Source: a bacterium
GTDB taxonomy: Bacteria; Sumerlaeota; Sumerlaeia; SLMS01; JAHLLQ01
Direction: 5' to 3'
Length of the DNA stretch: 64,000 nucleotides
NCBI GenBank assembly: GCA_020444065.1
Contig: JAHLLQ010000005.1
Location: 124,001-188,000, forward strand
Numbering within the stretch: position 1 is the stretch's first letter; every line of letters starts with the position of its first letter. The translations under genes were made by a program, and so were the position numbers. Below the pieces are notes generated by a model, which made no database searches, was not told where the DNA came from, and was given only the letters and a program-made list of their open reading frames with translations. Positions 4,971 to 60,700 of this stretch are shown one piece after another.

Positions 4971-5420
4971 CTAAACCTGCGGCCTTCCCGAGAACATCGG
5001 TTCGCCTTTGAAGAACTGTGTGAACAGGACGCCCGCCAGCACGGGCACGCGGTAGATGCCCTTCTTGAAGAGGGCCGCCACGCCGCCGATCAAGACCCCG
5101 AGCGCGATAGCGCTCGTCGCCACCGCGGACCAGATGGGGTTTGCCCCGAAGCCTAGCATCAGGAACTGCCCCAGGAACCCCAGGACCAGCAGGCCGAGCT
5201 CGATCGCCGCCAGTTGCGTCGCCAGGAATCGTGTGCCGCCCGCCCGTGGCATCGAGATAGCCAGGAAAATGATTCCCGCTACCGGCGATAACGGCGCGAT
5301 GCACAGCACTGGCATCAGAACCAGCGGCACCAGCGCCAGGTGCGCCGCCGCAAGCAGACCGCGATCATCGGAGTTGGACTCCAGATCGTCGATGGTTTCG
5401 TAGACTTCTTCTTCGCTCAC
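4971..5420 (-). CDS. Multi-pass membrane protein coupled to the molybdenum hydroxylase gene
   Basis: A 149-residue protein with an acidic N-terminus (SEEEVYETIDD) and four or five hydrophobic segments between residues 24 and 135. I do not recognise the family. The GTG start at 5420 overlaps the TGA of the upstream molybdenum hydroxylase gene as GTGA, with GGAAG just before it, which suggests translational coupling. It is the last gene of the minus-strand operon and ends against the palindrome array. A role in assembly, anchoring or transport for the hydroxylase would be a guess from position only. Confidence 0.75.
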   Translation of the reverse strand: MSEEEVYETIDDLESNSDDRGLLAAAHLALVPLVLMPVLCIAPLSPVAGIIFLAISMPRAGGTRFLATQLAAIELGLLVLGFLGQFLMLGFGANPIWSAVATSAIALGVLIGGVAALFKKGIYRVPVLAGVLFTQFFKGEPMFSGRPQV

Positions 5421-8122: not shown

Positions 8123-8173
8123 GAAGGAATTTGCGTCAAGCAATAATGCTTGTCTAGATTTGGGCGAGCTACG

Positions 8174-32933: not shown

Positions 32934-33890
32934 ATGGCGACCAGGAAAGCCGACAAGACATCCGCAGCGAAGGCCGGCGGATGCTTCATGATCGTATTCG
33001 GCCTGCCGTTCCTGATCGCCGGCGCCATTGTCTTCACACAGGCGCTACGGATACTCCTCGGTTTCAAGCCTGCGACCGAGGGGATCGGCGGGCTGATCAT
33101 GATGATGTTCGTTGCGTTGATCTTTGGCGGCGCGGGCGGCGTCTTCATCTACATCGGCATCAGGGGCGTGCGCGGACAGTGGAACGTCGGCTCGCGGCCG
33201 AAGGGGAAGATCCAGGAGACCAACTGGCAGAAGAGCAAACTCTTCCCGCAGCAAAAGAAGCGAACCTTCGGCCCGCGCCGCGGGATCGCTCTGAAGCCTG
33301 AATCCACGGCGATCAGTTCGTTCTTCGTCCTCGCGTTCATCTCTGTGTTCTGGAACGGAATCTCTTGGACGGCGGTAGTCGTTATTCTTCGCGAGAACGA
33401 CGGCCTCGCTAAGTGGGGGCCTCTGATCTTTCTCAGCATCTTTGTGCTCGTGGGGCTGATCCTCGTCTATGCGGTCTTTCACAAGTTCTTCCGTGTCGTC
33501 CTCGTCGGAACCTCGATCGTCGAAATCGACATCGAACCGATGGCACCCGGCGACCGAGCGCGGCTGCGCGTTTACCAGAAAGGCGACTTCGAGATTACAA
33601 GCGCGCGCCTGGAGCTGGCCTTTCGCGAGCGGGTTACCTATCGCCAGGGTACAAGAACCGTGACGTCCGACCGGGATGTGCACACCGAGACTCTGGCGGA
33701 AGTCGGCTCCTGCCGCGCGTCGCGATCGGTGCCGATTATGGAAACCGAACTCGTCATCCCCGAATGGGCGCCACACAGTTTCGAAGCCAACAGCAACAAA
33801 CTGCAATGGGGCGTGCGCCTGCACATGGACATCCCCAATCGCCCCGATGTGAAAGACCTTTTCTTCTTCAGAGTGAAACCCGGGAGGTGA
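32934..33890 (+). CDS. Membrane-anchored arrestin-like protein A (four helices + cytoplasmic beta domain)
   Basis: A 318-residue protein. Helices at about 17-42, 52-78, 124-152 and 160-183 precede a soluble beta-rich domain at 190-316. That domain follows the pattern EPMAPGDRARLRVYQKG, then an ELxIPEWAPHSFEANSNKLQWGVRLHMD segment split as PEWAPHSFEANSNKLQW and GVRLHMD, ending in a FFFRV strand. This is the arrangement of arrestin/Spo0M-like beta sandwiches. Start at 32934 follows AGGAG. It is first of five consecutive genes; the next two proteins share the same domain order. Function unknown. Confidence 0.75.
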   Translation: MATRKADKTSAAKAGGCFMIVFGLPFLIAGAIVFTQALRILLGFKPATEGIGGLIMMMFVALIFGGAGGVFIYIGIRGVRGQWNVGSRPKGKIQETNWQKSKLFPQQKKRTFGPRRGIALKPESTAISSFFVLAFISVFWNGISWTAVVVILRENDGLAKWGPLIFLSIFVLVGLILVYAVFHKFFRVVLVGTSIVEIDIEPMAPGDRARLRVYQKGDFEITSARLELAFRERVTYRQGTRTVTSDRDVHTETLAEVGSCRASRSVPIMETELVIPEWAPHSFEANSNKLQWGVRLHMDIPNRPDVKDLFFFRVKPGR

Positions 33891-33899
33891 GGGAGGGAC

Positions 33900-34802
33900 A
33901 TGAATTTCAGCCTCGATGATATTCGAGAGTACTGGGCAACTTCGAAGAGCTTCTTGGGAATCTCTCCGTCTTGGATTCTGGGTGCTCTTGTGCTTCTTGT
34001 CTTGTTAAAGATTCTCTTCGGTATTCTTGGCCGATACACCAAACGGCGAACAAGGAGGACGCGACTGGATGCAAGACAGGGCAGTTGGGTAGGGTGTTCG
34101 ACGCAGAGGAATCGCTTCTTTCCGAAGCGTCCGGCGCTTTGGCCAAACCGTGGGGGACGGATCGAACTCCTGCGTCATCCTCTGGAACTGATCGCAGATC
34201 TTGGCAAGTCCGGCTTCCTGCTGATATTCGTACTTATTGTACTCTTTCTGATGAACCCACTTGGCGATGGAGTCGTTTCAGGCAATGAGTTCCTTTCGCT
34301 CCCAATCGTTGGCATCTTCCTTCTCGTTGGTTACTACAGCATCAAGCCAGTTGTCGTCGGATTGCAGAGAAATCTCTGGAAAGTTGAACTTGAGGCGGAG
34401 CCGCTCGAGGTTGGAGGCTCGACCGCCTACAGCATTTCGCAGAGACTTCCATTCGAATGCGGATTCCTCTCGGCGCATCTCGTTCTGTTCGAGCAAGTGA
34501 TGTCGGATCTCTGGCCGGGATTTGTGCCTGACGAGACGGGTCGAGTCGCAGTCGTCTACAAGAAGAAACTCGGTGAGTGTAGAGAGTTTCGTGGAACCCG
34601 TGGTACCCCGATACTTCAGGGCACACTCGAGATTCCCGAATGGGCGGCGCATAGTTTCGCGGCGGCCGGCAACCGACTGACTTGGGCCATTCAAATCGAT
34701 CTCGAATTGGATCATGCCTCACCATTGATCGACGATACGCCGTTGATCTTCCCCATTCGAGTCGCTCCGTCATCCTCCGCAGAGGAGGTTCAAAGAGTAT
34801 GA
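33900..34802 (+). CDS. Membrane-anchored arrestin-like protein B
   Basis: A 300-residue paralogue of the gene just upstream. Helices lie at about 25-44, 104-118 and 132-150, with a basic cytoplasmic loop between the first two. The C-terminal domain (158-289) has the same landmarks as protein A: EPLEVGGSTAYSI, then IPEWAAHSFAAAGNRLTWAI and a final PIRVAP strand. The sequence is otherwise quite different, so the duplication is old. The ribosome site GGGAGGGAC precedes the ATG. Its stop overlaps the next start (ATGA). Confidence 0.75.
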   Translation: MNFSLDDIREYWATSKSFLGISPSWILGALVLLVLLKILFGILGRYTKRRTRRTRLDARQGSWVGCSTQRNRFFPKRPALWPNRGGRIELLRHPLELIADLGKSGFLLIFVLIVLFLMNPLGDGVVSGNEFLSLPIVGIFLLVGYYSIKPVVVGLQRNLWKVELEAEPLEVGGSTAYSISQRLPFECGFLSAHLVLFEQVMSDLWPGFVPDETGRVAVVYKKKLGECREFRGTRGTPILQGTLEIPEWAAHSFAAAGNRLTWAIQIDLELDHASPLIDDTPLIFPIRVAPSSSAEEVQRV

Positions 34803-35740
34803 ATCTCCTCATCGCCACATTGACCGGCGGCGATATCATTGGCATCACGCTGGCGCTGCTGAGCCTTGGCGTTATGCTCACTCTCACTGTTCGATTCCTC
34901 CTACCCCCAGGCACAGAAGCGTATCAAACAGGCCGATCGAAGTCCCTGGAACTGACAGGAGCGCAGAAGCTTCGAAAGCGAATTCGGGGCAGGAAGTCGG
35001 GTCGAAGGATACTGCACTGGAAACCTCGCATGTGGGGAGAGGGCTGGTGGAGCAATGACTTCTTTCCTCGGCTGGGCCTCAGGCGCAGCGGGCGAGATGG
35101 CTCGTGGATACTGCCATCTGAAAATCGCGATGAAATTGAAGGAAAAGGATGCGGATTCATCAGCCTGGCATTTGCAATTGGGTCGATCGGCGCGCTGCTG
35201 ACATTGCTGACAAATCACACCCCACTCGGAGAAGACGCCAAACTGGCAGCAGCCACAGTGGCGTATGCAATCCTTGCGTGGCTTTCTTTTCTCCTTACTC
35301 GGGCCATCCGCAACGACTTCGATCGGAAGAAAGGGACGATCGTCGAGCTGAGCGATGAACCCCTGCTTCCCGGTCAGGAAGCGGAACTGCGCGTCTACAG
35401 AAATGAGAAGTTCCCCTTCAAAGGCATGGCCGTCTACCTTGTGCTATACGAGGAAACACGAGAGGAACGAGACAACCAATCAGCTGCGACCAAGAAGAAG
35501 ATCGTCTTAAAGAAACGAATCGCACGATTCAAATACAGACAATGCCAAAGCGATGAGCCAATACACCGCTCCTCCTTCTCCATTCCAGACAGAGCGATGC
35601 ACAGCCTCGAATCCCGCCACAGCAAATTGTCTTGGAAGATCATCCTGAGAATTAAAGAATCCAACAAGAGAACATATACGATGGCCTATAACTTCAGAGT
35701 CGCACCCCAACTACTTCCCGATACCGAGGACGTCGCATGA
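34799..35740 (+). CDS. Membrane-anchored arrestin-like protein C
   Basis: A 313-residue third paralogue. Helices at about 12-34, 118-137 and 147-169; a basic loop with WGEGWWSNDFFPR; a C-terminal domain (178-303) with EPLLPGQEAELRVYRN, IPDRAMHSLESRHSKLSWKI and a last NFRVAP strand. It starts with an ATGA overlap with gene B and ends with an ATGA overlap with gene D. Codon choice here is more AT-rich than in genes A and D (many AAG/AAA/AGA codons), which might reflect separate origin. Confidence 0.75.
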   Translation: MNLLIATLTGGDIIGITLALLSLGVMLTLTVRFLLPPGTEAYQTGRSKSLELTGAQKLRKRIRGRKSGRRILHWKPRMWGEGWWSNDFFPRLGLRRSGRDGSWILPSENRDEIEGKGCGFISLAFAIGSIGALLTLLTNHTPLGEDAKLAAATVAYAILAWLSFLLTRAIRNDFDRKKGTIVELSDEPLLPGQEAELRVYRNEKFPFKGMAVYLVLYEETREERDNQSAATKKKIVLKKRIARFKYRQCQSDEPIHRSSFSIPDRAMHSLESRHSKLSWKIILRIKESNKRTYTMAYNFRVAPQLLPDTEDVA

Positions 35741-36135
35741 GCAACCTCAAAGTCAACATTGAGCTCGACAACGAGCAGACCACCTTTCGGCCCGGTGAGC
35801 GCATCAGTGGCCGCGTGAGTGTGGAGGCGCCTTCGATGTGGGAGGCGGATTTCCTGGAGCTCATCATTTTCTGGCGCACGGAGGGACGCGGGACCGAAGA
35901 TACCGCGAGCATTCTGCACGAGAAATACCACGATGGGATGCAGAACGTCTCACCGCAGTTCCAGCAGTCGTTTGCGGTGCAATTGCCCGACATGCCGTGG
36001 ACCTACTACGGCGATCTGATCAAGATTCACTGGTACGTTGGCCTTTACGCAAAGGAGAAGGGCGAAAGCGAAGAGTACCTGGAGGTCAACTTCGTCCTGC
36101 ATCCGAATCCCGAGTTGCTCTCCGTTCGCAAATGA
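35737..36135 (+). CDS. Soluble arrestin/Spo0M-like protein D
   Basis: A 132-residue protein made of one beta sandwich only. NIELDNEQTTFRPGERISGRVSVE is the classical first half of an arrestin-N/Spo0M fold (residues about 7-30), and residues 58-128 run LHEKYHDGMQ to the VNFVLHPNPE end strand. It has no membrane segment. Its ATG overlaps the TGA of gene C. It could be a soluble competitor or adaptor for the three membrane-bound copies; that role is inferred. Confidence 0.78.
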   Translation: MSNLKVNIELDNEQTTFRPGERISGRVSVEAPSMWEADFLELIIFWRTEGRGTEDTASILHEKYHDGMQNVSPQFQQSFAVQLPDMPWTYYGDLIKIHWYVGLYAKEKGESEEYLEVNFVLHPNPELLSVRK

Positions 36136-36725
36136 GCCCATTTGGATGTGCGCATAATCCGTTTTCTACTCGGCACACGGGGCCGGATGGTACGTCATAT
36201 CTTTTTCCACCGGGACAGACAATCGAGGCGTTTGCCGACGCGATTGCTGCGGAGGAATGGCGCGCGGAGTTGGTGGGTCCCCACGGAGCAGGGAAATCGA
36301 CTCTGCTTCGGACTCTCTTTGCAGAAGTCGAGCGGCGAGACCTTCCGACTGTGCTTTTCTCCTTCAACGACCAGCGGCGGCGTCTGCCGTTCGGTTGGAG
36401 AAGGTGCATTGCGCGCGGCGGGGTCTGCTTTCTCGACGGAGGCGAAGTTCTGCCAGCGTTTGCGCTGCGGCGATTGGACCGTGCAACGCATCGCCACGGG
36501 TGTGGACTGATTGTCACAACACATGCTCCGTTGGGCATCGCCCCGGCTCATCAGGTCACGCCCGATCCCGAGACGTTCGCGCTCCTCGTCAGCAACCTGC
36601 TAATTGACACTCAGTATGTCGTTTCGGACGAGCATGCCATGCAGATTCTGCTGGCTCACGGCGGGGATGCTCGGGAAGCATTGTGGGCCCTGTACGACGA
36701 GTTCGAGTCTTTTGCCGTCGAATAG
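36132..36725 (+). CDS. Small P-loop NTPase E, last gene of the arrestin-like operon
   Basis: A 197-residue protein with a clear Walker A (GPHGAGKST, residues 49-57), a Walker B-like VCFLDGGE (98-105) and a downstream LIVTTHAP strand (127-134). The C-terminal helices contain GGDAREALWALYD, which resembles the sensor-2/lid helix of AAA ATPases. There is no ABC signature (LSGG), so it is not a normal transporter ATPase. It starts with an ATGA overlap with gene D. Likely an energy or switch component for the arrestin-like proteins; the closest family needs a profile search. Confidence 0.8.
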   Translation: MSPFGCAHNPFSTRHTGPDGTSYLFPPGQTIEAFADAIAAEEWRAELVGPHGAGKSTLLRTLFAEVERRDLPTVLFSFNDQRRRLPFGWRRCIARGGVCFLDGGEVLPAFALRRLDRATHRHGCGLIVTTHAPLGIAPAHQVTPDPETFALLVSNLLIDTQYVVSDEHAMQILLAHGGDAREALWALYDEFESFAVE

Positions 36726-48471: not shown

Positions 48472-50049
48472 CTAGCCACTCGTCAGTTCTTTCCCAATCG
48501 TCTCAAACAACGAATCGAAGCTGTCTGCGAAGGCCTTCAGTCCATCGTCCTGCAACTTCTGGCAGATCGCCTTCAGGTCGATTCCGTAAACTTCGAGGCC
48601 GCGCAGCAGATCGTCCGCTTCTTCCAGTCCTTCGGAGACGGCGTTCATTCGAACCTGGCCGTGATCCATCAATCCATCCAATGTGGACCGAGGGATCGTG
48701 TTGACCGTATAGGGCGCAACCAACTCTTCGACATATAGTACGTCGCGCAGTTTCGGATCCTTCACGCCGGTGCTTGCCCAAAGTGGCCGCTGAACGCCCG
48801 CGCCGGCGCGGGCCAGATCCTGGAAGGGTTCGCCGAAGAACAGCTCTCGGAATTCCGCGTAGACTTGCTTCGTGTTTGCGATGGCAACCCGATCGCGGGC
48901 GGCCTGGAGGAACTCGCGCTCCTCGTCATCCTTTGCAATTGCCAGCTTCGCATCGATCTCCTTGTTCACTGCCACGTCGATCCGGCTGATGAACATACTG
49001 GCGACGCTGCGGACGTCGTGGGTCGGATTCCCGGCGGCAAGGCGCGCGCGCAGGCCGCGAACGTAGGCCGCCGCGACATCGCGATAGTGCTCCAGCGAGA
49101 ACATCAGCGTCACATTCACGTTCACACCCAGCGCCGTCAGTCGCTCGAAGGCCGCGATTCCTGCCGGCGTCGATGGCACCTTGATCATCAGGTTTGGACG
49201 GTCGATTTTCTCGAACAGGCGAACGGCTTCTTCGACGGTCCCTTCCTCGTCGTGGCCGAACCGCGGCGGGACTTCCAGAGACACGAAGCCATCATCGCCA
49301 CCCGTGCGATTGTAAACCGGACGCAGGATATCGAGAGCACGCTGGATGTCGTTCAGCACCATCTCCTCGTACGCATCTTCGACGGAGGCACCGCGTCCGC
49401 GCAGCGATGCCAACTGCTTCGGATAGCTGCCTACGCCATGGCCGATGGACTTGTTGAAGATCGTCGGGTTGCTGGTCATGCCGCGGATGTTCCACTCATT
49501 TGCCAGCCGCTCGAGTTCACCGCTTGCGATCATGCGATCGTTAATGTCGTCGAGCCATGGGCTTTGCCCGAAACGAACAAGGCGTGCGGTGGGGAGATTG
49601 CTGACGGTCAGTCGATCCAGCCCATCGATCAAGTCCACGCGCCGTGCATGGCGGCCACCACCGAACGTGGCATCCAACCACGCCAGAACGACCTCGCCGA
49701 TCTCGTCAATCATGTGGTCCGCCGCTAGGACGAGAACATTGGCGCAGTTGTGTTCGCGAGCCAACTGAGCCGTAGCTTTCTTCATCGCCAGCGCTGCACG
49801 AACGCCCGGATAGCGGTTCGCCACCATCATCATTCCGTTTCCGGAACGACACAGAATCACGCCAAGATCCGCAGCGCCGGTGGAAACGGCCTGCGCCACG
49901 CGCCCGGCGAAAATCGGATAGTCCGTCGACTCCGGCGTGTACGTGCCGCAATCGATCGGCGCGTAGCCTCGCTCCACCAGGAATTTCCCGAGTGCGTTCT
50001 TCTCCTCGAAGCCGCCATGATCTGTTCCGATGGCAATGCGAAGAGCCAT
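48472..50049 (-). CDS. Fused ribose-5-phosphate isomerase B / transaldolase
   Basis: A 525-residue fusion. Residues 1-145 are RpiB-like: GTDHGG (D10, H11), LCRSGNG with C67, H100 in REHNCAN and GGRHARR near residue 131. Residues about 155-525 are a long-form transaldolase: GMTSNPTIFNKSI (190-202), the Schiff-base lysine K290 in MIKVPSTPAG, and SVASMFISRIDVAVNK. RpiB interconverts ribulose- and ribose-5-phosphate, and transaldolase moves three-carbon units in the same non-oxidative pentose phosphate pathway. No frameshift is needed, and the junction is a natural hydrophilic linker. It leads the operon that includes the ABC exporter and nadC. Confidence 0.92.
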   Translation of the reverse strand: MALRIAIGTDHGGFEEKNALGKFLVERGYAPIDCGTYTPESTDYPIFAGRVAQAVSTGAADLGVILCRSGNGMMMVANRYPGVRAALAMKKATAQLAREHNCANVLVLAADHMIDEIGEVVLAWLDATFGGGRHARRVDLIDGLDRLTVSNLPTARLVRFGQSPWLDDINDRMIASGELERLANEWNIRGMTSNPTIFNKSIGHGVGSYPKQLASLRGRGASVEDAYEEMVLNDIQRALDILRPVYNRTGGDDGFVSLEVPPRFGHDEEGTVEEAVRLFEKIDRPNLMIKVPSTPAGIAAFERLTALGVNVNVTLMFSLEHYRDVAAAYVRGLRARLAAGNPTHDVRSVASMFISRIDVAVNKEIDAKLAIAKDDEEREFLQAARDRVAIANTKQVYAEFRELFFGEPFQDLARAGAGVQRPLWASTGVKDPKLRDVLYVEELVAPYTVNTIPRSTLDGLMDHGQVRMNAVSEGLEEADDLLRGLEVYGIDLKAICQKLQDDGLKAFADSFDSLFETIGKELTSG

Positions 50050-50452: not shown

Positions 50453-53400
50453 TCAGCGCAGCATCCACATCGGGTTGCCGGCGGGATCGCTCTGCGCTTC
50501 TATCGTCATGTGCTGATCGATTGTCACATCGATCGGGTTTGTCAATTCACCGCCCGCGGGCACGTCGCCAATCCAGCCGATGAACTCCCAGTTGGGATCC
50601 ATTACTGCTTCCAGGCGAACCGTCTCACCATAATCGTACAACGACTTGTCCGGCTGGCGCGTGACCTGGCCATTTGTTGTGGATGTCAGCAGCGTGTACG
50701 TGTTGATGGCGAACAGCGCCGTCAGGCTCTTGTTCCCATCCATCAGCAACGGCAATGGATTCGTGGACTCGGAGCCCGGTGGCACATCGCCGGTCCAATT
50801 CGTGAAGTGGAACCCGTCGGCTCCCTTCGCGTTCAGTTGCACGGTGCTCGCTGGGGCGTAACCGGGCTGACTTGGATCGGTCGAAACCGTACCGTTTGTC
50901 GCTTGCACATCCAGCGAGTAGTAGTTTGTCGGAGTCGGCGTGGGTGTCTCTGTTGGACCAGGAGTTGGTGATGGCGTCGGAGAAGGCGTTGGCGGAATGA
51001 TCGTCCACAACTCGAACGCCATATCCATGTCCTGACCATCCAGTCGATGACCCGACGGCCATGTCATTGGTGACCATCCGCCGCCGATATCGATCATGGC
51101 TGCTGCCATGTGCCCATCATCGCTGTTCAGCCAACCCCAGCCGTGCTGAATCAAGCCATCCCCGTAGACGGCTTGGATGGACAGGAAGTAGCGCTCGTTC
51201 GGCGCAACCTCCCACGGGGAATTGAATGTAGCTTGGTAAAGGTACTCATGCTCGTAGGAGCCGGGGTATTGCCATTGCTCGACCGCGCCGGCCCACGTTT
51301 CGGTGTAATTGCGCACCTGCTCCTGGATCAGCAACTCGCCCGGATGCGGCGCTGGATCCTCATTTGACGAATAGACCTGGACCTCGAAATACAGTGGCCG
51401 CTCGACCGGCCAGGGATCTCCAGGCGAAGCGTTCGGATCGATCCACGCCGGAGAGTTCACCTCATCCGATGTCGCGGTCTGCCAGCTTGCGTAGGAACCC
51501 CACCACTTGAGCGCCTGAACTGTCGAGTCGGGCGGAATGGCGAAGTCGTCTGCAACCACCTGGCTGAACGTATTTCCAACATCACGATAGGACTGCACGT
51601 CATAGCCATCAGTCATGTTGGGAGCCTGTTCTCCCTGCAGATCGTAGACATACGGCGTCGGCGTTGCAGATGGAGTCGGCGAGGGCGTTTCGGTTGGCGT
51701 TGGCGTCGGAGCCGGCGCGGAGAACTGGAACGCCATGTCGACTGCCTGACCCTCCTGCGGGTGGCCGGGTGGCCAGACTTGTTCTGTCCACTCTCCACCG
51801 TCAACTTGCTGCACCGACGCGGCATTCCACCGCGAGTCGCTCGTGTACCAGCCCCACTGATAGTCGGGGAAGGCCGTGCTATACAGCGCACGGACCGAGA
51901 AGAATCCCACTGCACCTGCCGGCGGAACGAATGGCGTTGTCAGTTGGCATTCATACCGGAAGACATGCAGATACTGTCCAGGCTGATCCCAGATGGAATA
52001 GCTGGCAACATAGGTCTCATTGTAGACGGCCGAGAGTGCTGCATGCGTCACCGGCCCAGGCACGGGCAATCCTGCTGCAGTCGTGAATTCCATCCACTGA
52101 AGTTGGAACTGCTCCGGCCGCATCGTGGGCGCAATCACAGGCCCGGCGAATCCGGACAGATAGCCTTGGTAGCCACCGTAGAACGTCACTGTCCCGATCG
52201 CCTGTCCGGATCCCGAGTCTTCCCAGTCGTCCGCCGTCGAGTACATCGGCAGCGAGCGGGGCGAGACCTCTCCCCACGAGAGTACTAGCTCGCCGTCTTC
52301 TTCCGACGGGGGTTGATTCCAGGACATGTTGTCCGGTGTCGGTGATGGGGACGGGGTGGGTGTGTCGCTCGGAGTTGGGGACGGAGTCGCCGACGGGGTT
52401 GGACTCGGAGAAGGAGATGGCGTCGGGGAAACCGTAGGAGTCGGGACATTCTGGAAGTGCATAGCGAATGAGGCGTCGATCGGCTGGCTCTCCAATCGGT
52501 GGCCCGGCGGGTAGTTCAACTCGGTGAAGAAACCGCTCGTCTCACGCAGGGCCGCACTTCCCCACTCGTGCTCAGAGGTCAGCCATCCCCATGGGTACGT
52601 GATCATGCTATCATCGAAGATGGCCTCGATCGAGAGGAAGTACTTCTGGCCGGCGGATTGTGTGATCGTTGTGGGCAGGCTGGCCTCATAGCGATACTCG
52701 TGCTCGTAGGTTCCAGGCATGGATCCGGATCGAACCGCGTAGCCACCGGATTCGCTCCATGATTCAAGGACCTGGGTTGTGAGCAGAGAGCCCGGACGCG
52801 GTGAACCTCCTGAATCCGACCACTCGTACGCGCGAATCAGGAACTGCCGGGGTCTGTTTGCCGGAGGAGGAATCGTTGCGGGATCATCCATTCCGTAGTT
52901 CAAGTAAGACCCCCACCATTCCAGTTTCACGATGGGCGAACCGTCCGTGCATTCCCAGTCGTCGTAGATCTTCTCGCCCATCGTTCCGGCGAAGTCCTTG
53001 TACGAAGCCATATCGTAGCCATCGATGAAGTTCGGCAATTGTGTCCATTTTGAGTCCGGATACGGCGTCGGCGTCGGTGAAGGTGTTGGAGCAACCGGCG
53101 GTACACGATCGCCGAGAATCTCGAATGCCATATTGAACGGATGGCCGTAGAGACGGTGTCCGACCGGCCATGCGAGTTCGACAGCCGGTCCGCCGCTGAC
53201 GGACTGTTGCGGCGCCACGTTTTCGTCCTCATCGCTGTTCAGCCAACCCCACTCCTCCGAAGGCGCTGAGCCGCCATAGTGCGCCTGGATTGCCAGCCAG
53301 TACATCTCTCCATCTACAGGTTGCCATGTTCCGGGCAAAGCCGCCGTGTACACGAACTCATGCTCGTAAGTGCCAGAACTGCTGCTGTAGATGGAATCAT

Positions 53401-56400
53401 CCCAATCCTCGCTGTACGAGTAGATGGTGTATTTGCCTTGCTGCGCACCAATCGTCGGGGGCGTTCCATCGATGTACGAGTACCACGCGATATCGAAACT
53501 GGAGGGACGAGTTTCAGGCGCGCTGACCGGACCCGCTTCGCCGGTCCGCCAGTTTGCGTACGATCCCCACCAGCGTATGGCACGCACTTCCGATCCATTG
53601 GATCCCCAGTTATCGATAATGATTGTCTGTCCGCTTGTGTCGACGTATGCTGACGTATCGTAGCCGTCCGTCAGATTCGGCGGCTGCGACCAACTGGAGT
53701 GCATCACATAGCCTTCATCGCCATTGCTGTACTTGCTGGGGCACTGGCCATCGTATGTACGAGATGCCTGCACCCAGTAGTAGTAGGACATATTCGGCTG
53801 CGCGGTGGTGTCCTCGTAGCTGATGCCCTCAAACCAGCCGCTCAGATCGGTCTTCTCACCGAGCAGCGAGACCGATCGCGAAACACGGTAGTAACGCGTT
53901 TCGGCGCTGGGACTCCAGGAGATGACAACCTTATCGGTGTATGTACCATCTGTAGCCTCGACGGGGGATGGGCCGTTTTCCGCTCTGTATCCCATTACCG
54001 GTTCGCTGTAACCATTTGCGCAACCGCCAGAGCTATTTCCAGCCGAGCGCACCCAGTAGTAGTACGGAAGGCCTGCAGTCAGAGAGAAATCTTCATCCAC
54101 ATATCGTGTTTCCGTGTCCCAGGAAGTGATCGCGATTCGCGCGACGCCCGCAATGTTGTCGGCGCGATACACCTGGTAGTAACTTGTCTCGAAGACGATC
54201 GGCCACTCCACGACAATGGAATCCAGATAGGTTCCCTGAGACGCAGAAACCGAATGAGGTGGCGGCGTGTTGTAGGAGCCTGCGCTGGGGCCGCCGCGCT
54301 CGCTTGAACCATTGGATGTGTGGGCACTGACCCAATAGTAGTAATTCTGGCACAAGTACCCTGTTCGATCGACCACTTGGTTACCGCTGACATGTTCCAT
54401 AATCAGAGATGGAAGAGGATCCAATGGATTGACCGACCGCCATACTCTGTAGAACTCGGCACCGTAGACGGTATCCCAGGTGATCTCCACGCCGCCCGTA
54501 TATGTCCCAAGGGTAGCATCTACGTTATACGGTGCCTGCAGACCCGTCCATCCCGCAAATGGGCCGGCCTGCGAACTCTTGTAGACCCCGCTCGAGCGCG
54601 TTCCACATGCGATCCAGAAGTTGTAGGTCCTTCCAAAGACACTGGGCGTGTACTCGAACGATGTCGACGTCATCGCCGATGATTCCCAGCAATCGTCGCA
54701 CGTTTCGCCTTCTGAGACATAGACCCAGTAGTAACTTGCCCCTGGTACGGCATCCCAGGTCACGACGATCTTATCCGGATACCCTCCTTGTGTTGCAGCC
54801 CCATTGCTTGGGCCGGGCAGAGTACGCCAGCCGGCATTGCGGACTGACAGTTCGCTTTCTCTCGTGCCGCTACTATCTGCCGCCGCACTGACCAGGTAAT
54901 AGTACGTCGTCATCGCTTCCGCCGTGGTGTCGGTGAACGTGTCGTCATTGATCCAGCCACTGAGCGGAACTGCTGTGTCCGACGTGGTGGCCTGGCGATA
55001 GACACGATAGGCACCAGCGCCTGCGACTTCGAGCCACTCGACCTTGACACCGTTCTGGTATTCTCCGTCGGAGGCTGTGACATTCGCAGGTGGCGACAAC
55101 TTCCGCCATCCCGATGTTGGAGTCGTATACAGACTCATCGCGGTCTCAGATGCATCCGTCGCCCGCCGCAGGCTGTACCAATAGGTTGCGCCTGGAACTG
55201 CAGTCTGGTCGCGCCAGTAGGACTGTTGGATCCAATCGCTGATCGGCGCGGCCGGAGCTTCGTAATCGTCCGCCCGGAAGACTCGATAGTAATCCCCATC
55301 ATTGTCCCATGTGACGTTGACGTAGTCCGCGCTTGTGCCGTCGCTGGCCGAGACACCGGTTGGCACAGGAAGTCGTGCCCACCCCGTATCTTCCATCGCG
55401 TAGCTTTCTCGCGTGCCGCTTGGGCTGGCGGCGGCGTAGACACGGAATCTGTAATCTTCACCTGCAACAAGGTTATTGGAATAGCGGAATTCGCGCTCGG
55501 TCCGCCAACCCGTCAGGTCAGTATAGTCAGATTCCCCGGGGCGCATCACCATCAACTTGTAGTGCGTTGCTCCAGTAACGGCGGTCCACGTAATGCGAAT
55601 CTCGTTCGTATACCACCCATCGGAGGCCACAATGCTGGATGGCGGAACGAGTCGATCCAGAACGGGCCATCCGCGAATGTAAACATCGTCGATGTACGCA
55701 CCCTCTCCAACGGTCGAGTCGCTGTCGCTGTGGAAAAGAAACGCTAACCACACCTGCGGTTTATTGATGTAGTTGTTAAGCGAGAGCGACTTGCGAGTCC
55801 AATCGCCGCCGGTTTGTCCCAGCTTCACGGGGGCGAAGTCTGTTCCGTTCGTCGAACCTGCGATCGCAACATAATCATCCGCCGCATCGTTTGTTTGGAA
55901 GAAGTACCAGAATGCCATATCGCCCTTCGTCCAACCCAGCGTGCTGAAGGGGCCGTAAACGATGTAGGTATGCACATTCTTGGGATACGGACCAGGTGCG
56001 GCCCAATGATCGCCTACACAGTAAAGCGAGTAGTCGTTGTCTCCGCCGGGTGGCCTCGGGTCGTCTGCCGGACCGTGAGCGCGTGCTTGCGTCTCGCCCC
56101 AGTATTGTGTACTGCTGCCAGTGCTCAGACCCGTCCACGGGCCTCCCCACAGGCCAGACTCGAAATCATCCGACCAGAGACACTCGTAGGGATCGTCGTA
56201 CGGGATCACCTTCTGGATCGATTCATTATCCGCGGGCACATTGTCCCAAGCCAGTTCAAATGGTGTATCCTGGTAACGGTCGTTTTTGTAAATTCGATAG
56301 TTGTGGTGCAAAAGGAGAATCTTGTTATTGTAGTCCCATTCATCATACCCGGCGGCCGTCGTCGAGTGTGCCCACTCGGGGTACTCGTCCTCGTCGTAGT

Positions 56401-57439
56401 TCGAATAGACCAGAGGTCGGCCGGCAAGAAGTTCTGCCTTTAGGTCATTCTCCCAACCCAGATACTCGCCCTCGTCTCCCTGTTTGTCCGAAACTCCGAT
56501 CGGCGTGTTGTTGTTATAGAAGTCGTCGCGCAGGAACTTGCGCAGGCCTGGCGCCATGGCATAATCCCAAGTGCCATTCTCGGGAGAGTAACTCAGCGCG
56601 CGCATGAGACGATATACGGCTTCATCTTCATGGCCTGTCTGTGACGAGCCATTGTCGATCAGATTCCCAAAGCCATGATCGTCCCAGTAGCCCATGACCT
56701 GTGCACTGGCATTCTCAGCGCAGCAGTTAGCACCATAATCATCCTGGTGGTAGTAGGGAACATCGTTGATATGGAAATAGGATGGATCGGAACGCTGCAC
56801 ATTTGGTGACGGCGGGGGAGAGCCGGTTGCCTTGAAGGCCGCCCAGATATCTTGCGGTGGCGGCATATTCTTGTCTTTCCTCACCGACGGCAATCTTCCG
56901 GAACGGAGCGCACGTCCGGACATTTCGAAGACCTTCGAAGCCCACGTGTCGACGAGCCACGCCGGCGCATCGGAATCGGAACGACGGCTGCCGTCGTTCG
57001 GCTCATGAAAGACTGCCAGTGCCCCGAGATAGTACGATCGCTCGATCGCGTCTTCGCCGCGCGCAGAGATCTTCGCCAGATCGGCGACGCGATCACCTTG
57101 CAGCGTATGAGGCGCTGGACCGACAAACCGCTCCAGCATTGGATAGACGTCCGAGTGTCCTGCCACAAGTACTGTCCCGACGATTCCCGGATCATCGCCT
57201 TCTGCGAACTCGACAGCCCAGGCGTTTACTGAACCATCCAGTGCATAGTAGGGCGTAATTGTCGCGACCTGGGCATCGGACCAGCGCTGGTGCGCATAGT
57301 ACGTTGCCGCCGTCTTGGCGAGATCCGTCGGGATGTCGTCCGATGCCGCAAGCGCTGGACTTGGCAAAATCGACAATGCAAATAGTAGAGCGCCCAGTGC
57401 CCCAACAGCACTGCGCACCCGCGCATGAAAAGTACTCAT
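50453..57439 (-). CDS. Giant secreted C39-like peptidase with FnIII, long repeat and InlB-type domains
   Basis: A 2328-residue exported protein. Signal peptide at 1-31; propeptide-like region 35-200; C39-like peptidase at about 220-400, with NCCAENASAQVMGYWDD (C239 as nucleophile) and WAHSTTAAGYDE (H358). A MAM/immune-inhibitor-like sandwich follows (about 405-560), then seven fibronectin-III-like repeats (595-1245; SASDGTY-type starts). Four repeats of about 220 residues come next (from about 1247, 1466, 1706 and 1936), each starting near PPN-x-x-DGYD, containing a WGSY- or GGYQ-type loop and ending WPxGHRL, separated by Pro/Thr/Ser linkers. Two InlB-B-type repeats end the protein (about 2173-2325). 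The ATG at 57439 follows GGAGG. Confidence 0.85.
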   Translation of the reverse strand: MSTFHARVRSAVGALGALLFALSILPSPALAASDDIPTDLAKTAATYYAHQRWSDAQVATITPYYALDGSVNAWAVEFAEGDDPGIVGTVLVAGHSDVYPMLERFVGPAPHTLQGDRVADLAKISARGEDAIERSYYLGALAVFHEPNDGSRRSDSDAPAWLVDTWASKVFEMSGRALRSGRLPSVRKDKNMPPPQDIWAAFKATGSPPPSPNVQRSDPSYFHINDVPYYHQDDYGANCCAENASAQVMGYWDDHGFGNLIDNGSSQTGHEDEAVYRLMRALSYSPENGTWDYAMAPGLRKFLRDDFYNNNTPIGVSDKQGDEGEYLGWENDLKAELLAGRPLVYSNYDEDEYPEWAHSTTAAGYDEWDYNNKILLLHHNYRIYKNDRYQDTPFELAWDNVPADNESIQKVIPYDDPYECLWSDDFESGLWGGPWTGLSTGSSTQYWGETQARAHGPADDPRPPGGDNDYSLYCVGDHWAAPGPYPKNVHTYIVYGPFSTLGWTKGDMAFWYFFQTNDAADDYVAIAGSTNGTDFAPVKLGQTGGDWTRKSLSLNNYINKPQVWLAFLFHSDSDSTVGEGAYIDDVYIRGWPVLDRLVPPSSIVASDGWYTNEIRITWTAVTGATHYKLMVMRPGESDYTDLTGWRTEREFRYSNNLVAGEDYRFRVYAAASPSGTRESYAMEDTGWARLPVPTGVSASDGTSADYVNVTWDNDGDYYRVFRADDYEAPAAPISDWIQQSYWRDQTAVPGATYWYSLRRATDASETAMSLYTTPTSGWRKLSPPANVTASDGEYQNGVKVEWLEVAGAGAYRVYRQATTSDTAVPLSGWINDDTFTDTTAEAMTTYYYLVSAAADSSGTRESELSVRNAGWRTLPGPSNGAATQGGYPDKIVVTWDAVPGASYYWVYVSEGETCDDCWESSAMTSTSFEYTPSVFGRTYNFWIACGTRSSGVYKSSQAGPFAGWTGLQAPYNVDATLGTYTGGVEITWDTVYGAEFYRVWRSVNPLDPLPSLIMEHVSGNQVVDRTGYLCQNYYYWVSAHTSNGSSERGGPSAGSYNTPPPHSVSASQGTYLDSIVVEWPIVFETSYYQVYRADNIAGVARIAITSWDTETRYVDEDFSLTAGLPYYYWVRSAGNSSGGCANGYSEPVMGYRAENGPSPVEATDGTYTDKVVISWSPSAETRYYRVSRSVSLLGEKTDLSGWFEGISYEDTTAQPNMSYYYWVQASRTYDGQCPSKYSNGDEGYVMHSSWSQPPNLTDGYDTSAYVDTSGQTIIIDNWGSNGSEVRAIRWWGSYANWRTGEAGPVSAPETRPSSFDIAWYSYIDGTPPTIGAQQGKYTIYSYSEDWDDSIYSSSSGTYEHEFVYTAALPGTWQPVDGEMYWLAIQAHYGGSAPSEEWGWLNSDEDENVAPQQSVSGGPAVELAWPVGHRLYGHPFNMAFEILGDRVPPVAPTPSPTPTPYPDSKWTQLPNFIDGYDMASYKDFAGTMGEKIYDDWECTDGSPIVKLEWWGSYLNYGMDDPATIPPPANRPRQFLIRAYEWSDSGGSPRPGSLLTTQVLESWSESGGYAVRSGSMPGTYEHEYRYEASLPTTITQSAGQKYFLSIEAIFDDSMITYPWGWLTSEHEWGSAALRETSGFFTELNYPPGHRLESQPIDASFAMHFQNVPTPTVSPTPSPSPSPTPSATPSPTPSDTPTPSPSPTPDNMSWNQPPSEEDGELVLSWGEVSPRSLPMYSTADDWEDSGSGQAIGTVTFYGGYQGYLSGFAGPVIAPTMRPEQFQLQWMEFTTAAGLPVPGPVTHAALSAVYNETYVASYSIWDQPGQYLHVFRYECQLTTPFVPPAGAVGFFSVRALYSTAFPDYQWGWYTSDSRWNAASVQQVDGGEWTEQVWPPGHPQEGQAVDMAFQFSAPAPTPTPTETPSPTPSATPTPYVYDLQGEQAPNMTDGYDVQSYRDVGNTFSQVVADDFAIPPDSTVQALKWWGSYASWQTATSDEVNSPAWIDPNASPGDPWPVERPLYFEVQVYSSNEDPAPHPGELLIQEQVRNYTETWAGAVEQWQYPGSYEHEYLYQATFNSPWEVAPNERYFLSIQAVYGDGLIQHGWGWLNSDDGHMAAAMIDIGGGWSPMTWPSGHRLDGQDMDMAFELWTIIPPTPSPTPSPTPGPTETPTPTPTNYYSLDVQATNGTVSTDPSQPGYAPASTVQLNAKGADGFHFTNWTGDVPPGSESTNPLPLLMDGNKSLTALFAINTYTLLTSTTNGQVTRQPDKSLYDYGETVRLEAVMDPNWEFIGWIGDVPAGGELTNPIDVTIDQHMTIEAQSDPAGNPMWMLR
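52324..52450 (-). repeat. Pro/Thr/Ser linker microsatellite in the giant C39-like gene
   Basis: Codon-level tandem repetition (TCGGTGTC/GGAGTCGG-type units) encodes a long Pro-Thr-Ser linker between the third and second long repeats. Similar shorter tracts occur near 50940-50995 and 51655-51715, and in the subtilase gene near 60490-60560. Such tracts are prone to slippage and are probable length-variation points. Confidence 0.8.
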
Positions 57440-57702
57440 GACGAGATACCTCCTCCAATCCGCAGCGAATGCGGAACATGCTGGCTTTTCTGGTGCATTC
57501 AATTGGCTATTCCCGAGTCTCGCAGGAGTCAATCTGCATTAGAGGTGTATCTACACCCGACCATGAGTGGTTTGGCCTTGCCTCGGGCGTTTTTTCCTTT
57601 CATGCCCGGAGTGCTTCCTCCTATAAAAACTTCACCATCGAGAAGAATACCCCACCATCGGAGAGTTGCCGCTCCGCGCGCTCTCCGTGAAGGACGCATA
57701 CC
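57440..57702. promoter_or_regulatory. Divergent intergenic region of the two secreted peptidase genes
   Basis: It should contain both promoters. A 6-bp hairpin TCCGCA-GCGAA-TGCGGA (57459-57475) lies next to the minus-strand ribosome site. CGGAGAG/CTCTCCG (57659-57665 with 57681-57687) lies just before the plus-strand GAAGGA ribosome site. Both leaders can therefore fold close to their start codons. A TATAAA at about 57632 is a plausible -10-like element for the plus strand but lacks a clear -35. Confidence 0.45.
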
Positions 57703-60700
57703 ATGAAGCGCTGGTTCGTTTTGCTCCTGGTGGGGGCGGTGGGGGGAATTTGCGCCGCGGCGGAGGCCGCGGAACGCACGAAGGTTGACGGAAGTCTGCT
57801 CGTTCTCTTCGACGCAGTTGAGCGCGGCAGGTCGCTCCGGGAATTGGGATCCGAGGCACCCAGCCTCTATCGGAGCGACGGACGCGTCAGCGTCACGATC
57901 CGATTCGACAAACCGCTGACGGATCTGGAAGCCGATGCCTACGAGAAGAAACTCGGCATCGAGTGGATGCGCCTTCCGAATTCCAGCCAGATCGCGAACT
58001 ACGACCGATTCTATCCGGCGTGGATTACCAACGATCAACTTGGCGCTTTGCGGTCAGACACTCGGATCGAATTCATCGAGCCGGGAAAAGGTCTGCACGA
58101 GGTTTCAACGCTCGATGTTTCCGTCCCGGAGATCCAGGCCGACATTCGTCATCAGTGGCCGACTGGCACAAACGCATTCGGCAATACGGGTCAAGGCATC
58201 CGCGTAGCGGATTGGGACAGCGGAGTCGACGTCACGCATCCCTTCTTCTTCCGCGCGGAGCCATACATTCGTTACGATCTTGTCGATGCCGATAACAACG
58301 GCTTCTTCACTCCCGGCGTCGACGGAGTGGACCTCGACGGAAGTGGTGTGTTGGAGTCGGATGAGTACCTCGACTTTGTCGATTCCTTCGCACTTCCGGG
58401 CGTCTACGATACGCACACCGATTGGCTGTACAATGATGCGAACCGGAATGGCGAACGCGACACAGGATCAGCGGCAGGTTTCTCCGAATCGGATGCGGCC
58501 TATGGCGAGCTCGTCTTCTATGTCGAGGACACAAACGGAAATCACATCCTTGAAGTCGGCGAGAAACTCGCACCATTCAAGGAAAGCAAAATCTACAAAG
58601 CGCTCGGCGCGGGTTACATCGAGTATACTCGCGGCTCGAATCTGATCGATACTCCGCCGGACCCTGGTGGTCACGGCACCAGTGTGCTCGGAATTGTTGC
58701 GGGGCAGGAACTTGGGTTCGGCCGTGCCTACGTTGGCGTTGCGCCAGGCGCCGAGTTGCTCCCCATCGACAGGAAGAGTAACCCCAATCATATTTCGACG
58801 CTCACTTGGGCGCTCACAAATGGAGCTGACGTCTGCCTGTGGGAATTCGGCGGTTGGACCGGCCAATACCTGGATGGGTCCTCCTCACTCGAGATGGCCA
58901 TTACCCAGGAGATGGAGGGCACTCGTTCCGTCCATGTGATTCCCAACGGAAACCTCGGAACCTCCGATCGGCACGCGCAGCAAGACTTCACCGGCGCGAT
59001 CACCGAGATGAAGACGCAGACATTGGACATTCCTGCCGATCCCGGAATCAAGTACCTGGCCTTCTCGCTTCTCTACACGGGCGAACTGTCCGACTTCCGT
59101 TACGAGATTCGCCAGGGTACATCAGGCGATTGGACTTCCATCAATCCAAACGTTTTGCCAAGAGACGTCGCGATCGGCGACGACCATACAGCCTACGGCG
59201 TCATAGAGACCGGCCCCACGGTTCGTGGGACCGTTCGATACGACATGCAGCTTGCTCGAAATGACCGGGCCGCGATGTCGGGCAATTGGCAGTTGCGCTT
59301 GGCGAAGTACACCAATTCCGACCGGCGCGTGCATTTCTACGTTGCCGACGATGCCACCTCCTGGAGCGGAGGCGCCTACTGGGTCGACAATTCCACGCCG
59401 GCCAGCACGATCACCTGGCCTTCAACGGCAGACAAAGGCATCAATGTCGGCAGCTACAGTGTTGACATCCTCGAAGGCCCCATCAGCGGCTTCAGCGGAC
59501 GTGGACCGCGCATTGATGGATGGGCGAACGTTCTGGATATCGCGGCCCCCGGCGACTACGACATTCTCACATGCATCAGCACCGCGCAGTTGGGCGACTG
59601 GGGTTACTACACGAACTTCGGAGGAACCAGTGCTGCTGGACCGCATGTTGCTGCGGCTTGTGCCTTGTTGTGGGAGGCCGTGCCTTCCTCCACGCCCGCT
59701 GACCTCGCCGCTGCAATCAACGACTCCGCACACACCGATTCAGACACCGGAGCCGTCTACAACGACCAGTGGGGCTGGGGGAAACTTCGGATTCACGACG
59801 CGTTCTTTGAGCTGGCTGGAAACAAGTGCTCGGCGATCTCCGGAATCAACAACATCTCCCCATCGAACAACGCAACGAACGTCGACTCGACGGGAACGAC
59901 ATTGTCTTGGAGCGACGATCCCGACGCGCAGTTGTTCGATCTCCACTTCGGAACGACGAACCCACCGGAGCTCTTCGTTCCCGGCCTGACCGGTAACTCA
60001 ATGCCGATCACGGACTCACAACTGGCGGCAAACACAACCTACTACTGGCGGCTCTACGCGCGGAACACTTGCGGCTCTGTTTACGAGACGCCTGTCTGGT
60101 CGTTCACAACCGGCGCAGGACCGGAGCCCGACATTGAACTCATTCGCTTCGACGAGAGCTTCAACCGCTACCCCATTCCGTTGAATGGCACTGTTGCTTT
60201 CCCGGACACCGCGGTGGGCGACAGCAACAACATCGTTATGCTCGTCAAGAACAATGGGGCGGCGGACCTGCACCTGACGGGAACGCCGACGGTGCAATTC
60301 TCTGGTCTCAGCCCATACGACTTCACGGCGACACCGCCGAATCCGCTCGTCTACGCGGGTGGAGCGGAGAACGCCTTCACCATGACATTCGAGCCCTTCG
60401 TCGGCGGCCATCGGATGGCGACCGTTTCGATTCCGAACGACGACCCGGATGAGTCGCCTTACACCTTCTACGTCACGGGCATCGGCATCGCGCCCACGCC
60501 GACTCCTTCACCAACGCCAACCGCATCTCCTACGCCATCCCCGACCCCCACTGGGACGGCACCACCAACGATTCCTCCGATGCCGACGGCGATCGATCTC
60601 TCTCAATCGCCGGGTCAGGAGGGACATCCTCTCACGCGCATCTACGGCGAGTCGGATAATGATGCATTGGGTGGCGACTATCGCAGTACCATTGCCATGG

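Follow-up and report, generated by a model that had tools for sequence, protein, structure and literature searches.

Analysis of a 64,000-nucleotide stretch from a 5.2-Mb genome of the phylum Sumerlaeota (contig JAHLLQ010000005.1, positions 124,001 to 188,000; here called the window) revealed that five adjacent genes, designated A to E, are a copy, expanded in this lineage, of the three-gene cassette A-D-E, which is widespread. Gene A encodes a membrane protein with a predicted arrestin-like lobe, D a putative soluble arrestin lobe, and E a predicted nucleoside triphosphatase (NTPase). That the cassette is a real unit, with A-D-E as its conserved set and B and C as extra divergent copies of the A type, is very likely. 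A preliminary description of this DNA had proposed five tightly packed genes coupled in strict order as one complex. Its open reading frames (ORFs) and coordinates (32934 to 36725, all on the plus strand, with junctions of 9, -4, -4, and -4 bases) proved correct, and the idea of one functional unit was retained, but the conserved set is A-D-E and not A-B-C-D-E.

Conservation of the A-D-E gene order

The searches were seeded with E alone, without selection for its neighbors, and the neighboring genes were then read. GTDB species genomes scanned with an alignment of E yielded 21 true E loci from Planctomycetota, Acidobacteria, Hydrogenedentota, Desulfobacteraceae, Polyangiaceae, and Sumerlaeota; one P-loop false positive (L083) was left out. 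A, D, and E were found in this order on one strand at 17 of the 21 loci. Three of the other four were cut by contig ends, and the fourth (L071) carried E alone.

For a second survey, genomes were drawn evenly per phylum and searched with E only, each count including the seed genome. Strong E members were present in 16 of 148 Planctomycetota genomes (plus one divergent member), 5 of 144 Myxococcota genomes, 11 of 68 Hydrogenedentota genomes, 5 of 149 Acidobacteriota genomes, and 2 of 148 genomes from the phylum of the Desulfobacteraceae genome. Planctomycetota matches with E-values from 1e-4 to 1e-7 were mostly generic P-loops and were discarded; a wide gap separated them from the true members. 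The divergent member (G207; 1.5e-10) was confirmed by its neighbors. A-D-E was found at 29 of the 33 newly drawn loci in five phyla (Planctomycetota, 12/15; Myxococcota, 4/4; Hydrogenedentota, 8/9; Acidobacteriota, 4/4; phylum of the Desulfobacteraceae genome, 1/1). In the three planctomycete exceptions (G088, G169, and G194), E stands apart and A-D is coupled elsewhere in the genome. In both surveys the genes stayed together, in line with the preliminary description, except that B and C do not belong to the conserved order. The phyla in which A-D-E was seen are Sumerlaeota, Planctomycetota, Acidobacteriota, Hydrogenedentota, Myxococcota, and Thermodesulfobacteriota, and at many loci both A and D and D and E overlap by 4 bases. 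Counted at an E-value of ≤1e-20, A was present in 19 of the 148 Planctomycetota genomes, 17 of which also had E and two of which had A alone; none had E alone. Of the two A-only genomes, one carries the stand-alone DUF3592 protein of L100 and the other the D-A fusion of L101. As judged by sequence comparison, the homology of A, B, and C and the synteny of A, D, and E in other phyla far exceed chance.

Variation around this core was found mainly in the number of A copies and in the presence of E. In the family and order of the window genome, A-D-E occurs in G002, G004, and G010, and A-D occurs in G006, G007, G009, and G011, the last with the arrangement A-D-A-D; G001 has D-E alone, with A on another contig. 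A-D without E was also seen in G099. Among the genomes read, the A-B-C triplet was seen only in the window genome, and two Hydrogenedentota loci with A-A-D-E (L113 and L114) show independent doublings of A, each ahead of a single D and a single E. A divergent planctomycete version (L099, 1960 to 4453; genome G207) has the reversed order E-D-A. At a further Sumerlaeota locus (L060, 6793 to 7500; genome G033), E is split into two frames with an internal stop and D is partial, which points to a decaying cassette.

Predicted folds of the A, D, and E proteins

The preliminary description had assigned to A, B, and C three or four helices followed by an arrestin-like sandwich with shared landmarks. 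These landmarks were present in A, B, and C as EPMAPG, EPLEVG, and EPLLPG, as the strands IPEWAPHS, IPEWAAHS, and IPDRAMHS, and as FRV, IRV, and FRV near the C terminus, and hydropathy analysis predicted four, three, and three membrane helices, respectively. In each protein, the last hairpin comes after a loop rich in lysine and arginine (13, 16, and 20 K+R). Since this loop lies on the same side as the sandwich, the positive-inside rule places the sandwich in the cytosol. Mutual homology was detected by BLASTP (A-B, about 1e-12, and 5e-12 over residues 134 to 290; A-C, 4e-12; B-C, 4e-6), and C matched Sumerlaeota A proteins at 2e-19. A single-sequence scan of the genome contigs with C gave no match. 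In a tree, B and C sit among the Sumerlaeota A proteins on very long branches and are therefore old, fast-evolving copies rather than products of a recent tandem triplication.

The A protein was modeled with AlphaFold2 on 29 locus sequences. The model had a mean predicted local distance difference test (pLDDT) score of 86, with values of >93 over most of the sandwich. Foldseek comparison with the PDB revealed ARRDC3 (1.1e-8), TXNIP/VDUP-1 (4.2e-7), Spo0M (5cl2; 2.1e-6), beta-arrestin (1.6e-5), and VPS26C (2.1e-5), the top matches all belonging to the arrestin clan with a probability of 1.00. Pfam arrestin models scored below their gathering thresholds, and the match of A to Spo0M (PF07070) had an E-value of 0.037 and 14 bits, under the cutoff of 23. 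D lacks any membrane helix predicted by hydropathy and corresponds to the sandwich alone, as proposed. It shows a conserved loop, W-x-T-E-G-K/R-G-x-x-D, and a strand, P-x-x-P-x-S/T-Y-x-G. A 31-sequence D profile matched PDB sequences of ARRDC3 (3.2e-5), TXNIP (6.5e-5), VPS26C (1.8e-3), and VPS26B (6.7e-3), and alignment of this profile with the A-sandwich profile by hhalign gave an E-value of 8.5e-7 and a probability of 91.5. By profile comparison, D is classified as an arrestin-clan lobe with an arrestin-type beta sandwich. The arrestin-like nature claimed for the sandwiches was thus borne out by the predicted structure for A and by the profile for D.

Most A relatives outside the Sumerlaeota order of the window genome carry one or two DUF3592 domains (PF12158) between their helices, for example, L028 (9e-17), L059 (9e-33), L063 (4e-12), L076 (2e-17), and L079 (5e-16). 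Relatives of this kind were found in Sumerlaeota (L028 and L059), Planctomycetota, Hydrogenedentota, and Thermodesulfobacteriota, and their DUF3592 domains, which open the A protein in most lineages, are predicted by topology to lie outside the membrane. In contrast, the domain is absent from A, B, and C of the window. Comparison with the relatives identifies window A as a degenerate DUF3592-arrestin membrane protein; A, B, and C have lost the domain and kept the helices. A stand-alone DUF3592-like protein with a sandwich-like C terminus and no D or E nearby (L100, 4670 to 5947; genome G096) suggests a wider DUF3592-arrestin family outside the cassette.

The canonical arrangement of two lobes in one polypeptide is absent from the window, where they are split over A and D; fused lobes were seen only at L095, L099, and L101. 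At L095, A and D form one frame of 738 residues with two DUF3592-like parts, helices, the A lobe, and the D lobe. The fusions at L099 and L101 begin with the D lobe, followed by an A part that has two helices. Because the fusions occur in two different domain orders, the A and D lobes probably work together. The fused protein of L099 carries an extra C-terminal domain of no recognized type.

E contains the motifs GPHGAGKST (Walker A), VCFLDGGE (Walker B), and GDAREAL (sensor 2-like), as the preliminary description had recorded. Residues invariant across 27 E proteins are N9-P10-F11, those of Walker A, H131, G178, and R181. The E model (pLDDT, 95.5) has a P-loop core and a three-helix lid, and R181 lies inside model helix 180 to 196, the position of a sensor 2 arginine in the C-terminal helical lid. 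Foldseek revealed RFC subunits (4.4e-6), Hda (5.3e-6), NorQ (8.3e-6), and MuB (3.5e-5), with TM-scores by query of about 0.45 to 0.63 against the leading AAA+ structures. By its predicted structure, E is an AAA+ protein of the clamp-loader/Hda/NorQ type. It shares with RFC, Hda, NorQ, and MuB the core, the helical lid, and the sensor 2 arginine but has no collar or DNA-binding part, and its Walker B reads DGxE instead of DE. No arginine conserved in at least 60% of the 27 aligned E proteins was found between Walker B and sensor 1.

Other NTPase classes were considered for E. An ABC ATPase was rejected, as the LSGGQ-type signature is absent from the 27 aligned proteins and the fold search led to AAA+. 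A whole-genome search gave 8 PF07726 matches, none at E, which excluded MoxR; four strong MoxR-type ATPases are encoded at other places in the window genome. Assignment to an identified STAND family also failed, with nSTAND_NTPase5 reaching 11.8 bits for E and 26.7 bits for its G001 orthologue against a cutoff of 34.

Features and surroundings of the locus

The features of the locus are listed in Table 1. Promoter and terminator scans performed no better than shuffled sequences.

Table 1. Genes, domains, and motifs of the cassette locus (positions in the window)
Feature	Position	Strand	Remarks
Gene A	32934..33890	+	Conserved A component; four transmembrane helices, C-terminal arrestin lobe (predicted cytosolic)
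Arrestin-like lobe of A (residues 194-312)	33513..33869	+	AlphaFold2 pLDDT >93 there; Foldseek
Gene B	33900..34802	+	Gap of 9 after A; divergent extra A-type paralogue, three transmembrane helices and sandwich
B sandwich (about residues 158-290)	34371..34769	+	Homologous to A sandwich (BLASTP, alignment)
Gene C	34799..35740	+	-4 relative to B; divergent extra A-type paralogue, three transmembrane helices and sandwich
C sandwich (about residues 179-303)	35333..35707	+	Homologous to A sandwich (BLASTP)
Gene D	35737..36135	+	-4 relative to C; putative soluble single arrestin lobe
Gene E	36132..36725	+	-4 relative to D; compact AAA+-like NTPase, 197 residues
E N-P-F motif (residues 9-11)	36156..36164	+	Invariant, 27/27 aligned sequences
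E Walker A GPHGAGKST	36276..36302	+	G49, G52, G54, K55, and T57 invariant
E Walker B VCFLDGGE	36423..36446	+	D102 96%, G103 85%, E105 81%
E sensor 1-like T-T-H	36516..36524	+	T129 96%, H131 100%
E sensor 2-like G-D/N-x-R	36663..36674	+	G178 and R181 invariant

A GT39 gene (ArnT-like) starts at about 36799, 73 bp after E, and the preliminary description had left its link to the cluster open. This gene was rejected as part of the unit, as it is absent beside E in the other A-D-E loci read; a relative about 0.9 kb away on the opposite strand in planctomycete locus L064 was taken as chance. No fourth gene at the cassette is common to all lineages. Downstream of the cassette, one gene of no recognized family is common to four planctomycetes and a PolX-like gene to four; upstream, four planctomycetes have a gene resembling the C-terminal domain of the RNA polymerase alpha subunit. 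In three Planctomycetota genomes, E lies among core genes (fab genes and PNP; translations read by eye).

Reading of translations by eye revealed four further ORFs elsewhere in the window. A 908-amino-acid ORF (5417 to 8143, minus strand) is an apparent fusion of a 2Fe-2S subunit with a xanthine dehydrogenase-type molybdopterin subunit, and a 525-amino-acid ORF (48472 to 50049, minus strand) is an apparent RpiB-transaldolase fusion with a ribose-5-phosphate isomerase B-like N terminus and a transaldolase-like part. The other two encode very large, apparently secreted proteins: a repeat protein with long P/T/S linkers (50453 to 57532, minus strand) and a subtilisin-like protein with FG-GAP-type repeats and a dockerin-like C terminus (57703 to 62832, plus strand).

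Possible functions and relation to known systems

The reading that we favor, with slightly less than even confidence, is that the cassette forms an arrestin scaffold of two lobes that is anchored in the membrane and has an AAA+ NTPase as its switch. Since canonical arrestins are two-lobed, A and D are most simply read as a split, membrane-tethered two-lobe arrestin. A is anchored by four (sometimes three) predicted helices with its arrestin lobe on the predicted cytosolic side, where this lobe would pair with soluble D. The tethered pair would bind the cytosolic face of client membrane proteins, like eukaryotic arrestins and VPS26, and the outer domain or the helices of A would set client specificity. 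By binding or hydrolyzing nucleoside triphosphate, E would drive the loading, release, or remodeling of D or the client. In the window, A, B, and C may be three membrane receptors that differ in client specificity and have a single D and a single E in common. The sorting or adaptor function that the preliminary description had proposed is plausible by fold likeness; the membrane bending that it had also suggested found no support.

Several points weigh against this scaffold. No client, partner, or phenotype is on record for the cassette. The four Sumerlaeota genomes with A-D but no adjoining E suggest that some lineages can do without E or have replaced it, and ring-type mechanical work by E is doubtful because no invariant arginine-finger candidate is present between Walker B and sensor 1. 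B and C, on their very long branches, could be decaying or neofunctionalized, and the Fisher P value for the co-occurrence of A and E in the 148 Planctomycetota genomes (2e-20) ignores shared ancestry.

The cassette resembles the alpha-arrestins ARRDC3 and TXNIP as well as VPS26/VPS26C in its arrestin-fold lobes and in the conserved P...S-F/Y...W strand. Eukaryotic arrestins and VPS26 have two lobes in one soluble chain, whereas the lobes of the cassette are split over two genes, one on membrane helices; moreover, an AAA+ gene is attached and the ubiquitin ligase partner is absent. In the open literature, no arrestin-like proteins linked to Planctomycetes or AAA+ systems were found (most subscription papers and bioRxiv were outside the scope), and DUF3592 was mentioned once, incidentally, among 5.4 million open papers. 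As no paper or defense model for it was found, the cassette is apparently undescribed, in provisional agreement with the preliminary description.

A somewhat unlikely alternative is an assembly chaperone, with E as an AAA+ remodeler, like NorQ for nitric oxide reductase, and A and D as dedicated adaptors that hold a membrane or periplasmic complex during its maturation by E; the arrestin lobes would then be mere binding platforms without a role in sorting. NorQ, with its VWA partner, is among the best structural matches of E, and E is small, is usually placed after its adaptors, and lies in core-gene surroundings in the three Planctomycetota genomes noted above. However, no conserved client gene stands beside the cassette in any lineage, no VWA protein is present, and E is not MoxR by PF07726. 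The lack of a VWA protein and of a MoxR-type E also separates the cassette from the MoxR-vWA ternary conflict systems (Kaur et al. 2020, PMC7159879), which share with it an NTPase with adaptor domains, a fixed gene order, and frequent occurrence in large-genome bacteria; the word arrestin is absent from that paper.

A distinctly unlikely explanation is an envelope stress relay, in which DUF3592 of A would sense an outside signal and the nucleotide state of E would gate the recruitment of a signaling or cytoskeletal partner by the arrestin lobes. Most A proteins carry DUF3592 domains, and Spo0M, a soluble protein not known to have membrane helices or an attached NTPase, is the closest bacterial structure to A. 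Arrestin-clan proteins of bacteria and archaea have been described as the Spo0M family (PMC2515105), and in Bacillus, interactions of Spo0M with cytoskeletal proteins of cell division have been reported (PMC5325327). Against such a relay, A, B, and C of the window lack DUF3592, so sensing would need helices or short loops, and no regulator gene is linked to the cassette.

It is very unlikely that the cassette is an anti-phage or conflict system in which an NTPase serves as the switch and the effector sits in the membrane, and this is the least supported of the chaperone, relay, and defense readings. The distribution is patchy (about 1 to 16% of genomes in phyla outside Sumerlaeota), and E shows weak matches to P-loop parts of defense ATPases. 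PADLOC-DB, however, gave no full-length component match, only short P-loop matches of E and none for A to D; 72,556 plasmids had no match to D or E, and there was no PHROG match. The neighborhood consists of core genes where inspected, and no nuclease or toxin domain was recognized. Slimmer still is the chance that A-D is the functional core and E a loosely associated regulator, adjacent through operon economy rather than as part of a complex: A-D occurs without E in four Sumerlaeota genomes and G099, and E lies at another locus in three genomes, but none of the 148 Planctomycetota genomes has E without A, and at many loci the last 4 bases of D are also the first of E.

In eukaryotes, proteins with the arrestin fold serve as central adaptors in sorting and signaling, while what is known of bacterial relatives comes mainly from Spo0M. 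An arrestin-AAA+ cassette conserved across at least six phyla would represent a novel type of membrane machine in bacteria. It would also place the DUF3592 domain in a functional setting, and the use of arrestin folds by bacteria to handle membrane proteins becomes testable. It is rather unlikely, yet conceivable, that the scaffold corresponds in bacteria to the cargo adaptors of the arrestin/retromer type, as a split tethered arrestin that selects membrane protein clients under its own AAA+ motor and that may bear on how the eukaryotic arrestin/VPS26 fold arose; the phyla that carry such a counterpart are known for their internal membranes and complex cell envelopes. These results suggest that an energy-driven adaptor exists in some bacteria and that it is made from the same fold with which eukaryotes sort membrane proteins.

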